This document shows, piece after piece, positions 24,841 to 36,127 of a DNA stretch of 36,127 bases. The notes beneath the pieces are model-generated. The model was given only the letters and a program-made list of their open reading frames with translations. It ran no database searches and was not told the origin of the DNA. How positions within the stretch are numbered: position 1 is the first letter of the stretch; each line of letters begins with the position of its first letter. The position numbers and the translations under genes are program-made. The DNA comes from Clostridia bacterium (GTDB lineage: Bacteria; Bacillota; Clostridia; UMGS1883; UMGS1540). Location of the stretch: contig JAQXGO010000019.1 of assembly GCA_029006755.1 (NCBI GenBank), positions 1 through 36,127 on the forward strand, given 5' to 3'.

Positions 24841-24879
24841 GCCGGGGTTGCGTTCGTGTATAAAACTTAACGTATAATA

Positions 24880-24929
24880 GGAGCCGTAGCAAAATGATGA
24901 TGAAAAATCTTTTTGCTACGGCTCCTTTT
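24880..24929 (+). terminator. Terminator of ppdK provided by repeat copy A
   Basis: GGAGCCGTAGCAAAA pairs perfectly over 15 bp with TTTTGCTACGGCTCC around a 16-nt loop, and TTTT follows, 40 nt after the ppdK stop. Confidence 0.88.
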
Positions 24930-25169
24930 GGGACTGGAGAAAAATCGTGCAGAATGGACAAACTGCGCCAAAGCCGCAGGCTTTGGGTCCCCGAAGGCGT
25001 ACACAGGTACGTCGAGAGGCGAAGTTTGTTCCTAGCATAAAGTATTTATATTTTAAGAAATGCATGGTTTAGCGAATGTCCACCCTCACTGTTTGACTCT
25101 TATAAGGCTGATTCGCATATGCGCAAGAATCGTATGCTTTATGCGGTCTGTGCATTTTTCTACGGCCCC
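24880..25169 (-). repeat. 290-bp inverted-repeat element, copy A
   Basis: Noncoding element, inverted relative to copies B and D. Terminal inverted repeats are GGAGCCGTAGCAAAATG at 24880 and, at the far end, the same sequence with one mismatch in a G form. Its outer part folds into a hairpin (15-bp stem 24880-24894 / 24911-24925, then TTTT) just downstream of ppdK. An internal stem CCAAAGCC-GCA-GGCTTTGG is shared by all copies. It is near-identical by eye to copies B and D over the whole length. No target-site duplication and no encoded protein seen. Confidence 0.85.
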
Positions 25170-25234
25170 TTTTGCTTCATGCACGTTGAAGAGGACGATT
25201 TCTCTATAAAAAGTATAAAAACAAATGAATTGGC

Positions 25235-25884: not shown

Positions 25885-27057
25885 ATGGATAACTTTCTAT
25901 ACGAAACACCGACAAAAGTGTACTTTGGCAAGGAACAGCACAAGGAAGTCGGCAGAATTATCAAAGCATATGGAGCGAAAAAGGTTCTCATCCATTATGG
26001 CGGCAAATCAGCAATGCAAAGCGGTCTTTTAAATTGTGTAAAAGAGTGCCTTGCTGCGGAAAATATTGCGTATATCTGTTTAGGCGGCGTTGTGCCAAAC
26101 CCGGAGCTTTCTCTCGTGCGTGAGGGAATTGCTTTGTGCCTTGCGGAAAATGTAGATTTCATTTTGGCAGTCGGCGGCGGTTCGGTCTTGGATTCTGCAA
26201 AGGGGATTGCAAACGGTGCGGCAAATCCCACAATGGATGTTTGGGATTTTTCAATACGAAAAGCAGAACCGCAAAAAACCATACCAAAAGGCTGTATTCT
26301 GACATTGGCGGCAGCCGGGTCTGAAATGTCGGCCTCCTGCGTAATTACCAATACGGAAACGGGCATGAAATGCGGCTATAACAGCATTTGCAACCGAATG
26401 AATTTTGCAATTTTAAATCCGGAGCTTACCTATACAGTCAGTCCCTATCAAACCGCATGCGGCATTGTAGATATTGCAATGCATACAATGGAACGGTATT
26501 TTTCTGTGGGAACTGACACCTATCTGACGGATTCGATTGCGGAAGCAGTGATAAAAAGCGTGTACAAGTCCGGTCAAGATTGTTTAAAGGCGCCGACCAA
26601 TTATGCGGCGAGAGCGAACATGATGTGGGCATCTTCTTTGGCGCATAATGGCCTTACAGAGTGTGGAAGAAATGTGGTGATGGCGGTACATCAGCTGGAA
26701 CATGAGGTTTCCGCCATGTATCCGGCAGTTGCCCATGGCGCAGGACTTGCAGCACTTTGGGGAAGTTGGGCACGGTTTGCCTATCCGGCCAACAAGCCGA
26801 GATTTGTACAGTATGCAAAAAATATTTGGGGTATCGATAATGCATCTGAGGATGCGGCAATACAAGAAGCGATAGCCAAACAGGAAAAATTATATCAATC
26901 CATCGGCATGCCCATTTCCTTGCGGGAACTTGGGGTAAAACCGGAGGATTTAGAAACGCTGGCCAATAAGTGCAGCCGTGATAAGACACGGGTTTTGACA
27001 GGGTATTGCAAAATCGGCTATGCGGAAATGCTGGATATTTACAAAAGGGCATATTAA
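25885..27057 (+). CDS. Iron-containing alcohol dehydrogenase (butanol dehydrogenase-like), 390 aa
   Basis: Group III Fe-type alcohol dehydrogenase. The NAD(P) site shows ILAVGGGSVLDSAKGIA, and the metal region shows the DIAMHTMERYF and VMAVHQLEHEVSAMYPAVAHGAGLAAL histidines. Members reduce aldehydes to alcohols such as butanol or ethanol in clostridia; the exact substrate is open. AGAGGA lies 6 nt before the ATG. It ends 3 nt before a palindromic terminator that is shared with the convergent GDSL gene. Confidence 0.92.
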   Translation: MDNFLYETPTKVYFGKEQHKEVGRIIKAYGAKKVLIHYGGKSAMQSGLLNCVKECLAAENIAYICLGGVVPNPELSLVREGIALCLAENVDFILAVGGGSVLDSAKGIANGAANPTMDVWDFSIRKAEPQKTIPKGCILTLAAAGSEMSASCVITNTETGMKCGYNSICNRMNFAILNPELTYTVSPYQTACGIVDIAMHTMERYFSVGTDTYLTDSIAEAVIKSVYKSGQDCLKAPTNYAARANMMWASSLAHNGLTECGRNVVMAVHQLEHEVSAMYPAVAHGAGLAALWGSWARFAYPANKPRFVQYAKNIWGIDNASEDAAIQEAIAKQEKLYQSIGMPISLRELGVKPEDLETLANKCSRDKTRVLTGYCKIGYAEMLDIYKRAY

Positions 27058-27059
27058 AC

Positions 27060-27083
27060 AAACGAGGCCGGACGGCCTCGTTT
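27060..27083 (+). terminator. ADH terminator, first copy of a shared palindrome
   Basis: A 10-bp perfect stem AAACGAGGCC / GGCCTCGTTT with loop GGAC. The identical 24 bp recur at 27592-27615. The T-run is short (TTT then CAG). Confidence 0.75.
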
Positions 27084-27182
27084 CAGACTGTCGAAAAACT
27101 CGGTCTACCACAAGCAAAGTATATATTGCATTTAAAAAGTAGACTTCTGTGTCCTTCAGCGCAGCGCATATCAAAATGGTAA

Positions 27183-27473
27183 GGGGCCGTAGCAAAATGC
27201 ACAGACCGCATAAAGCATACGATTCTTGAGAATATGCGGAAAAGCCGTATAAGAGTCAAAAAGTTAGGGTGGAAATTCGCTAAACCATGCATTTCTTAAA
27301 ATAAAAATGCTTGATGCTATGAACAAACTTCGCCTCTCGACGTACCTGTGTACGCCTTCGGGGAACCCAAAGCCTGCGGCTTTGGCGCAGTTTGTCCATT
27401 CTGCACTATTTTTCTCCAGCCCCAAAAGGAGCCGTAGCAAAAAGACTTTTATAAATCATTTTGCTACGGCTCC
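27183..27473 (+). repeat. 291-bp inverted-repeat element, copy B
   Basis: Full copy between the convergent ADH and GDSL genes. It begins GGGGCCGTAGCAAAATG and ends with a hairpin whose last strand TTTTGCTACGGCTCC is the inverted match of the start. The inner 15-bp hairpin is 27428-27473. The body matches copies A and D almost base for base. It lies between two copies of a second palindrome (27060 and 27592), as if nested. A frame crossing its right end could encode about 100 residues, but it continues past the element boundary and is not conserved as a protein. Confidence 0.85.
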
Positions 27474-27591
27474 TTGTGTTTTTTACGAATATAAACTCTA
27501 CCGTACCATCGTACGCCGACGAATTTACATTCGCAAAATATACCTTCGTTTTTCAACCTCTGACCAGCGTGTCGACTTTATCGACACGCTG

Positions 27592-27615
27592 AAACGAGGC
27601 CGGACGGCCTCGTTT
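27592..27615 (-). terminator. GDSL gene terminator, second copy of the shared palindrome
   Basis: Same 10-bp stem and four-base loop as at 27060-27083, 13 nt beyond the GDSL stop. Next to it is a separate perfect 10-bp inverted repeat AGCGTGTCGA-CTTTA-TCGACACGCT (27566-27590). Confidence 0.7.
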
Positions 27616-27628
27616 TTTCTGTAACGCA

Positions 27629-28609
27629 CTACGCAGTGTACATTTTTTGCATGTATTCCGCGGCTTCTTGACGAATCGCAGGAATATGCATGCGGTTTTC
27701 CATATAATCTTTATATGCTTCCGTACGCCATGGTTCAATAGGCATAGAAAGCTGTGACGACAAAAAGGCATCGGCCCGCTCGCTGTCTTCCGGGGAAATG
27801 CCTTGACCGGCTAAAACATTCATTTCTACATAATACAGATGCGTTAATCTTTTTGATACTGCAGTGCGAAGATCACTATATGGGTTTTTGGGGGACAAAT
27901 CTTCTTCTATGCCGAATCTACGTACAAAATCCTTTTCCGCAGGCGTGATGCTGGCATCCCACATGGGCAGCGTTGGGTTATGAATGCCCTGTGCGCATAA
28001 AATCGCATGCGCCATAAGAATATGGCCAATATTGCCGGGATGCACCCTGTCAGGCCCGATGATGGTAGGGATCATACGCTTGTCGTTGATAGCAGAAAGC
28101 GTTTTATGTATGTCTAAGGCCGGGGAGTAGGTTGCCATAATGTGAGAAGCTGCCTGTCGAAGGGCATCGTTATATCCTTTATATAAAGGTGTCTCTAAAG
28201 CCGTAGATTCTTCATGTGGCGTTGGCGTCATAAAACAATGGGGAATGGACGAGAGAAGTCCATCCAGAGCCGCAAGGTTCTCTGCATATTTCACCTGCTG
28301 CAACTGTCTTTTTTTCAATAGACTTTCCGTAACGTTGGCACTATCCGCGTAGAGCGAACGACCAAGGTCATTCATACCAAGCATTACGGTAGCGGCCGTC
28401 GGCTTTCTGGAGGCGACCAGTGTTTCAAAATTATCTAAAATTGTTTTCGCACTGCCACCCGGAATATTGGCATTATAAAAAAGAATCCGTTTTTCGGGAA
28501 AGTGCAATACATAATAGTCTATCAGAATTCTTGTGTATTTTTCTGCCGCCGTAATACTATCCCCAATAAAAAGAACAATATCACCGGCTTGCCATTTTTG
28601 AATTTCCAT
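27629..28609 (-). CDS. SGNH/GDSL-type hydrolase, 326 aa
   Basis: Serine esterase/lipase-like hydrolase. Block I holds the nucleophile Ser in FIGDSIT (about residue 18), the oxyanion-site GMND is in VMLGMNDLGR, and block V is GPDRVHPGNIGH with the catalytic Asp and His. No signal peptide, so it is probably cytoplasmic. The ATG at 28609 is preferred because GGAGGG stands 8 nt upstream; an adjacent ATG at 28612 is only 5 nt away. It starts 18 nt after the radC stop and is probably cotranscribed with it. Natural substrate unknown; family members act on acyl groups of sugars or peptidoglycan. Confidence 0.88.
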   Translation of the reverse strand: MEIQKWQAGDIVLFIGDSITAAEKYTRILIDYYVLHFPEKRILFYNANIPGGSAKTILDNFETLVASRKPTAATVMLGMNDLGRSLYADSANVTESLLKKRQLQQVKYAENLAALDGLLSSIPHCFMTPTPHEESTALETPLYKGYNDALRQAASHIMATYSPALDIHKTLSAINDKRMIPTIIGPDRVHPGNIGHILMAHAILCAQGIHNPTLPMWDASITPAEKDFVRRFGIEEDLSPKNPYSDLRTAVSKRLTHLYYVEMNVLAGQGISPEDSERADAFLSSQLSMPIEPWRTEAYKDYMENRMHIPAIRQEAAEYMQKMYTA

Positions 28610-28627
28610 CATACATACCCTCCATGA

Positions 28628-29305
28628 TTAAAGCATACCACGTTCGGCCATACTATAAAAATGGCCTTTTCCTACAATAATATGATCAATTACCGGTATA
28701 TCCATTTCGCCAAAGGTTTTGACGAGCTTTTTTGTAAGCGCAATATCATTTTCCGAAGGAGAAACAGCACCGGCCGGATGATTATGCACCAAAACAATGT
28801 GATGCGCACGATACAGAAGGGCACGCTCCACAACCTTGCGCACATCCACATTCGCGCGGTAGGCAGAACCGGATTCAACTTTACAAAAGCTATTTACATA
28901 ATTGGAAGGATCCAAGCAAATCAGGTAAAAACCTTCCTCGGTTTGATCGCCAATCATATCGACAGCATAGGTGCCCACTTCTGCAGAATTAGAAAGAAGT
29001 GGTTTGGCAGCCCATTTGCTTTTGGAATACAGCTTCATGCAATCCTTTACAAGATGAAAAAAGACGGCGCTCTCCTTGCCAATGCCGGATACTTGCTGCA
29101 AATTTTCGATATTCGCATCCAAAACACCGCTGAATGACCCAAAAGTATTTAAAAGCGCATGGGCAATACCATTCGTATCTGCGCGTGGTTTTACATAAAA
29201 CAAAAGCATCTCCAAGACCTCATGCGGCGCAAAGCCGTCAATGCCATTTTGAAGATACCTATTTCGCATTCTTTCCCGATGTCCCTCGTGAATGGAGAAC
29301 CCCAC
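28628..29305 (-). CDS. radC: RadC family (JAB1/MPN domain) protein, 225 aa
   Basis: N-terminal helix-hairpin-helix-like part (QVSGIGKESAVFF) and a C-terminal MPN+ domain with the JAMM-type motif VHNHPAGAVSPSENDI. Despite the name, a DNA-repair role is not established for the family. Start uncertain: GTG at 29305 has the ribosome-like AAAGG directly against it, and the better-spaced codon is ATT at 29293, giving the usual family N-terminus (IHEGHRERMRNRYL). It follows the tRNA-Glu terminator closely. Confidence 0.88.
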   Translation of the reverse strand: MGFSIHEGHRERMRNRYLQNGIDGFAPHEVLEMLLFYVKPRADTNGIAHALLNTFGSFSGVLDANIENLQQVSGIGKESAVFFHLVKDCMKLYSKSKWAAKPLLSNSAEVGTYAVDMIGDQTEEGFYLICLDPSNYVNSFCKVESGSAYRANVDVRKVVERALLYRAHHIVLVHNHPAGAVSPSENDIALTKKLVKTFGEMDIPVIDHIIVGKGHFYSMAERGML

Positions 29306-33040: not shown

Positions 33041-33085
33041 ACCTTGCGGAACCATCGGCAATTTGTACTATAATACAAACAAGCA

Positions 33086-33135
33086 GGAGCCGTAGCAAAA
33101 TGATGATTCAAAATCTTTTTGCTACGGCTCCTTTT
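33086..33135 (+). terminator. Aminotransferase terminator provided by repeat copy C
   Basis: GGAGCCGTAGCAAAA pairs perfectly with TTTTGCTACGGCTCC (33117-33131), and TTTT follows. It is the only terminator seen between the aminotransferase stop and tRNA-Pro. Confidence 0.85.
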
Positions 33136-33207
33136 GGGGCTGAAGAAAAATAGTGCAGAATGGACAAACTGCGCCAAAGCCGCAGGCTTTGGGTTCCCCG
33201 AAGGCGT
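33086..33207 (-). repeat. 122-bp truncated inverted-repeat element, copy C
   Basis: Contains the hairpin end and the CCAAAGCC stem shared with copies A, B and D, but the match stops at 33207 after GAAGGCGT. The other end is missing. It is probably a decayed copy cut by a later deletion. It lies between the aminotransferase gene and tRNA-Pro. Confidence 0.82.
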
Positions 33208-35803: not shown

Positions 35804-35874
35804 TTTAGTGTTTGGCCATCTAAACAATATTGAATTTTGAAAAACTCCCATTGGTTTGGTTTACATGCAACAAA

Positions 35875-36127
35875 GGGGCCGCAGCAAAATGCACAGACCG
35901 CATAACGCATACGATTCTTGAGAATATGCGGATCAGCCTTATCAGAGTCAAAAAGCTAGGGTGGAAATTCGCTAAACCATGCATTCCTTAAAATAAAAAT
36001 GCTTTATGCTATGAACAAACTTCGCCTCTCGACGTACCTGTGTACGCCTTCGGGGAACCAAAGCCTGCGGCTTTGGCGAAGTTTGTCCATTCTGCACTAT
36101 TTTTCTCTAGCCCCAAGGGGCCGCAGC
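35875..36127 (+). repeat. Inverted-repeat element, copy D (cut by the window end)
   Basis: Same orientation as copy B. Begins GGGGCCGCAGCAAAATG and matches copies A and B through the body. The window ends inside the hairpin at GGGGCCGCAGC. Both ends carry the same C change (GCAGC in place of GTAGC), unlike the other copies. Expected full length about 290 bp. Confidence 0.83.

Follow-up and report, generated by a model that had tools for sequence, protein, structure and literature searches.

The window, that is, the whole stretch of 36,127 nucleotides of Clostridia bacterium DNA that was analysed, belongs to a draft assembly of 1.78 Mb in 118 contigs (G000). Between positions 25,885 and 28,612 it carries two convergent genes, one for an iron-containing alcohol dehydrogenase (Fe-ADH) and one for a GDSL-type hydrolase, whose 3' ends face each other across a pair of identical stem-loops, a multicopy element (C) and a second repeat (B) nested in that element. 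The left stem-loop begins 2 bp after the stop codon of the Fe-ADH gene, and the right one ends 13 bp from the stop codon of the GDSL gene. The features are arranged as follows.

25885..27057, plus strand: Fe-ADH gene (Pfam Fe-ADH, 3.3e-42), convergent neighbour
27060..27083, no strand assigned: left copy of the terminator stem-loop, read as target duplication; CAGACTG comes next, with no plus-strand T-tract, and the T-rich tail for the minus strand is kept
27084..27591, plus strand: element C, holding repeat B (508 bp in all)
27084..27182, plus strand: left part of C, 98% match to C copy L140, the first ~18 bp IS1182-like
27181-27475, plus strand: repeat B, the window copy in C, sitting where other C copies have an internal hairpin
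27477..27591, plus strand: right part of C, 97% match to L140
27486..27533, no strand assigned: covarying internal stem of C, with arms at about 27486-27495 and 27524-27533
27565..27591, no strand assigned: terminal hairpin closing C on the right, CAGCGTGTCGA-CTTTA-TCGACACGCTG
27592..27615, no strand assigned: right copy of the terminator stem-loop, read as target duplication; the plus-strand T-tract is kept
27629..28612, minus strand: GDSL-type hydrolase gene (Pfam Lipase_GDSL_2, 5.5e-10), convergent neighbour
24879-25171 (minus strand), 33085-33207 (partial) and 35873-36127 (plus strand, to the contig end): other window copies of repeat B

The two stem-loops consist of the 24-mer AAACGAGGCC-GGAC-GGCCTCGTTT, located at 27060-27083 and 27592-27615 and identical at 24 of 24 positions, in agreement with the earlier note, which had described identical bases with a GGAC loop beside both genes. 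Each 24-mer folds into a 10-bp stem closed by the 4-nt GGAC loop. Fold energies, calculated with DNA parameters on slightly longer stretches, are -10.8 and -11.2 kcal/mol, with none of 200 shuffles folding as well, and the number of chance matches expected for the 24-mer is 0. The note had regarded the 24-mers as the arms of an inverted element; the GGAC loop, however, lies on the plus strand in both, making them direct repeats, and they also look inverted because the stem is palindromic. The T-tract of the Fe-ADH terminator is lost at the left copy and that of the minus-strand gene at the right copy, and the T-tracts for both directions survive at the far copies. Among the sites picked out by a pattern scan is the left copy, as a terminator of the minus strand, but the scan yields no more sites than shuffled sequence does and the indication is weak. 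Across the 1.78-Mb draft, allowing up to 3 mismatches, the 24-mer is present in these two places only. The earlier note had counted such confinement against its reading, yet it is expected for a target duplication, and a nested element is compatible with a 24-mer confined to this locus.

Outside the stem-loops, the GDSL gene and the adjoining RadC gene (window 27629-29305) are kept together in three relatives, G002, G004 and G005 (L123-L125). In the ~1.5 kb flank examined beside GDSL/RadC, the ADH gene was not found in any of the three. The convergent ADH and GDSL genes appear originally to have had one shared terminator, as had been proposed, and a repeated element now sits there.

The interval between the stem-loops measures 508 bp, starting with CAGACTGTCGAAAAACTCGG and ending with TCGACTTTATCGACACGCTG. 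Searches of the window genome and 60 related genomes place its outer parts in one multicopy element, C, with the ends CAGACTGTCGAAAAA... and ...TATCGACACGCTG positioned just inside the stem-loops. Most copies of C are about 230-285 bp long (252 bp in the reference copy L140), and copies like L140 contain a short terminator-like hairpin mid-element. One copy in G305 (L280) extends to 506 bp, with the extra sequence located within the loop of the covarying stem. The inner flanks CAG..TGTCGA..AAA..TCG, whose match in inverted orientation had been pointed out before, form 46-nt arms that match at 85%, hairpins included; they make up an element's terminal inverted repeats and, searched genome-wide, they are repeated, unlike the hairpin. 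The motif GTATATnTTGC, which had been counted into the same inverted match, is not conserved in the C copies of other genomes and was rejected on that ground as part of the terminal repeat; its match at this locus is probably chance. A transposase-bearing insertion was also rejected, as no ORF with a known domain lies inside: the interval holds just one ORF, of 105 aa, which extends over parts of C and B and for which Pfam gives nothing up to E 1. Longer copies of C carrying an ORF were looked for and none was found.

Repeat B is about 295 bp long, with the ends GGGGCCGTAGCAAAATG and CATTTTGCTACGGCTCC, and constitutes a separate repeat of the window genome, more numerous than C and present in many further places. 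Its ends may resemble those of the IS6 family. Tandem arrays of B with a ~262-bp period are seen at several places (contigs C22, C23, C27 and C36), several draft contigs end in B, and B lies mostly downstream of genes. Judged by eye, no target duplication is evident in the 19 copies listed. A hairpin like the end hairpin of B occurs without B in or beside parts of C at L023, L153 and L234, and in L023 this hairpin alone occupies the mid position of C. The same junction between C-left and B recurs in L002 and L003, a sign that C and B have at least sometimes moved as a unit; homologous recombination would give the same junctions. The nesting of B between the terminator copies, as described in the note, is confirmed for the copy at 27181-27475, which lies within C. 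Of the wider suggestion, an older inverted element holding a newer one, the repeated element with B nested in it stands, but the terminator copies are duplicated target and lie outside the element.

The other C copies of the window genome are likewise flanked on both sides by the same stem-loop, which differs from site to site: AGACTATTCATAGGAATAGTCT (L140), GTTTTATAGTCATCGCTATAAAACT (L142) and TGCATTTCTTAAAATAGAAATGC (L143, within a copy of B). With a different flanking hairpin at every C copy, the 24-mer was rejected as an end of the element. A set of 59 loci was picked from matches, not at random, in the window genome and 15 relatives, and both ends of C are recognised in 44 copies from 14 genomes; the 15 loci left out, among them several G160 copies without a recognised right end, have no recognised end pair. 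By one scoring scheme, the same stem-loop stands on both sides in 37 of the 44 copies, which are not independent, within-genome identity being on average 85-98%. The duplication is free of mismatches in 26 of these 37, over 21-33 bp. When the left flank of each copy is compared with the right flank of every other copy, the control returns 0 duplications in 1892 pairings. Stems of at least 8 bp are present in 93% of the flanks on the left and 91% of those on the right, versus 8.4% of 440 random 34-mers from the same loci. The seven copies not scored as duplications comprise two with crossed partners, two with loop inversions, one with an indel in the loop (L280) and two failures without explanation (L213 and L275). 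The hairpins of L135 recur at L024 and L144, and the hairpin of L195 recurs at L200, swaps of the kind that either recombination among copies or misassembled repeats would produce. In L229 and L269 the stems match and one loop seems inverted (TTTT versus AAAA in L229), a configuration that may hint at how the stem-loop is copied.

A C-free state is displayed by a pair of genomes of the same genus. The C copy of G005 (L339) has an orthologous place in G002 with one terminator stem-loop and no C, where the flanks are 85% and 72% identical and the flanking genes, judging from the sequence, read as convergent. The stem-loop of G002 is unlike that of G005 in sequence, so this site represents the C-free state and not the exact sequence before insertion. 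An empty site for the G005 copy was also sought in L199, where the flanks are not syntenic.

The ends of C connect it with the IS1182 family. The left end reads CAGACTGTCGAAAAAGTC in several genomes and ...AACTC in the window, and the left end of an IS1182-type element in G053 reads CAGCCTGTCGAAAAAGTC, the same as in a Thermocaproicibacter plasmid. The terminal inverted repeats are IS1182-like, with the left end close and the right end (CAGCGTGTCGATA read inward) less close. The G053 element, with 24 transposase matches, lies directly after a stem-loop in 13 of 13 copies among the matches listed. Among 12 IS1182-type loci examined from plasmids, phages and IMG/VR, a whole stem-loop is present at both ends in 8, of which 7 are distinct (L314-L319, L322 and L325, with L316 equal to L317); L323 is without stem-loop duplication, L320 has different hairpins on its two sides, and L321 and L324 complete the set. 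The left ends of L314, L316, L322 and L323 fold back and then run into Ts, giving them the look of a terminator. In Streptococcus phage Javan87, a 1538-bp IS1182-type element is lodged between two copies of AACCGCTCTCTTAATCGAGGGCGGTT, and phage Javan90 has one AACCGCTCTCTTAATCGAGGGCGGTT copy and no IS, with 500 of 500 flanking bases identical to Javan87 on each side. Here, too, the genes on either side of the site are convergent. Duplication of the whole stem-loop is thereby seen directly in a full-length relative; for C, it is the pattern that shows it. Direct repeats of IS1182 elements in ISfinder measure up to about 60 bp.

IS1182-family elements such as those of Javan87 and of the Sutcliffiella horikoshii plasmid pBH-BAT-167 share with C similar termini, terminator stem-loops as targets and duplication of the whole stem-loop. 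They differ from it in a length of about 1.5 kb that includes a transposase gene, whereas C is without a transposase and has a covarying inner stem of its own. In the 118-contig draft of the window genome, the search for an IS1182-family transposase gave 0 matches to NF033551 and none to PF05598, and among the C-bearing genomes NF033551 has matches in 4 of 17 only, all fragments below the cut-off. A search for an autonomous element sharing the inner sequence of C found none. The missing transposase weighs less because draft assemblies lose repeated IS copies; in G053, the IS is cut off by contig ends. The presence of an autonomous relative in a genome would speak for mobility and is not what defines membership.

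The fold of C was analysed with RNAalifold on 16 elements and on 34 right ends from 13 genomes, and alignment A1 includes 34 of the 44 copies. In the inner stem, 8 of 9 pairs show two-sided changes. Counted across the full structure, two-sided changes affect 119 cells versus 39.6 in shuffles, 0 of 500 being as high, and the slid-partner control reaches at most 17 two-sided cells; the sequences are related and the structure was drawn from the same alignment, so that neither fold control is a probability. The 306 cells of the inner stem divide into 285 Watson-Crick, 5 G-U and 16 other. This near-complete Watson-Crick pairing is a hint that the stem acts as DNA or on both strands, and the inner stem is proposed to function in transposase recognition or in the formation of transcript ends. 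A known Rfam family was rejected for C, with no covariance-model match: 6 C loci (L001 also with B) searched against Rfam 15 returned only a neighbouring tRNA up to E 1.

Matches to C occur in 18 of 60 related genomes. Of 291 genomes of the class, 9 have the strict left-end pattern and none matches the reversed control pattern; the strict right-end pattern is found in 0 of 398 genomes of a phylum sample, a weak negative, as this pattern misses the window genome's own variant. There was no match to C in plasmids and phages, nor to its ends in viral contigs.

The segment 27084-27591 is very probably a non-autonomous IS1182-type element that entered a shared terminator and duplicated a target the size of the stem-loop. 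A MITE-like element of this type, with repeat B, would have inserted into the single bidirectional hairpin of the ADH/GDSL terminator, with a DDE transposase presumably working in trans. The outcome is the order stem-loop, C, stem-loop, where the left copy retains the tail for the minus-strand gene and the right copy the T-tract for the plus-strand gene. For this scheme, we infer the identity of the transposase, the chemistry of strand transfer and the time at which B arrived.

A less probable account, with perhaps an outside chance, keeps the same insertion and duplication and has C moved by an enzyme unrelated to IS1182, as the passenger of some other system that targets stem-loops, the IS1182-like left end being convergent or borrowed. 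It would accommodate the covarying fold that C has of its own and the lack of an IS1182 transposase match in the window genome and in 13 of the 17 C-bearing genomes; on the other side, the ends of C and its target habit agree with IS1182-type elements, and the loss of IS copies from drafts applies here as well. It is very improbable that C replaced a stem-loop in the manner of IS1272, leaving two hairpins with no common origin or made equal afterwards. According to the available portions of PMC5678879 and PMC4923244, the stem-loop targeted by IS1272 and TnSha1 is deleted, and B sits where C has its internal hairpin, which is what replacement would predict for B, yet here and at most C copies there are two identical stem-loops, with a different sequence each time. 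Replacement of the IS1272 type was rejected for C, given a stem-loop on both sides and a target that is not deleted. Two separate terminators, alike by chance or gene conversion and with the repeat between them by accident, can practically be dismissed: terminators are common and palindromic by nature, and scanning gives no excess of terminator-like sites here, but chance predicts no 24-mer match, the arrangement recurs with unrelated hairpins and the cross-copy control stays at 0 of 1892.

Beyond insertion of an IS1182-type element, C could conceivably form a distinct structured mobile family, spread over several families of one class and not a mere deletion derivative of an IS, that spares terminators and has a stem acting as DNA or on both strands; this broader reading is tentative. 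On this reading, terminators survive the entry of C, since the stem-loop is copied in the process. If the reading is true, the stem would be, for example, a hairpin recognised by the transposase or a shared 3' end for convergent genes.

In the portions of the literature available, stem-loop targets without sequence preference, often terminators, are described for IS1272 and TnSha1 (PMC5678879, PMC4923244), and palindrome targeting by the IS1182 family is attributed to a review by Siguier and colleagues, cited in both. These two staphylococcal elements of the IS1182 family are unlike C in that the stem-loop is deleted and no target duplication is reported in those portions. Stem-loop duplication is drawn as pathway b of Fig 13 in Wan et al. 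2017 (PMC5678879), where the IS1272 data have the stem-loop lost with no duplication, and the accessible part of Furi et al. 2016 (PMC4923244) gives stem-loop loss without duplication. MITEPye1 of Paracoccus yeei, as far as the available text goes (PMC11578231), is like C in being small, ORF-less and intergenic, with IS1182-like terminal repeats and a predicted long stem-loop, and unlike C in its 4-bp direct repeats, its length of 159 bp and its 1-3 copies per chromosome. An IS1182 element with 4-bp repeats appears in the available part of PMC3196728. A literature search covering few subscription papers found neither the end sequences of C nor duplication of a whole stem-loop by such elements. 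Within these partly available sources, palindrome targeting by IS1182 elements and a MITE with IS1182-like ends are known, and duplication of the whole stem-loop by C appears to be new.

In conclusion, C, a probable non-autonomous IS1182-type element, offers before/after evidence from nature for a route of stem-loop transposition that in Wan et al. 2017 was only a drawn possibility, and it represents a compact substrate (~240 bp) for structure-directed choice of targets. For annotators it carries a warning, as matching hairpins around a repeat may have arisen by duplication of the target. Insertion into a terminator leaves the genes intact, which makes terminators good landing sites. Here the element also leaves one stem-loop for each direction, and this explains how a single bidirectional terminator, once shared, comes to exist as two copies separated by hundreds of bases.
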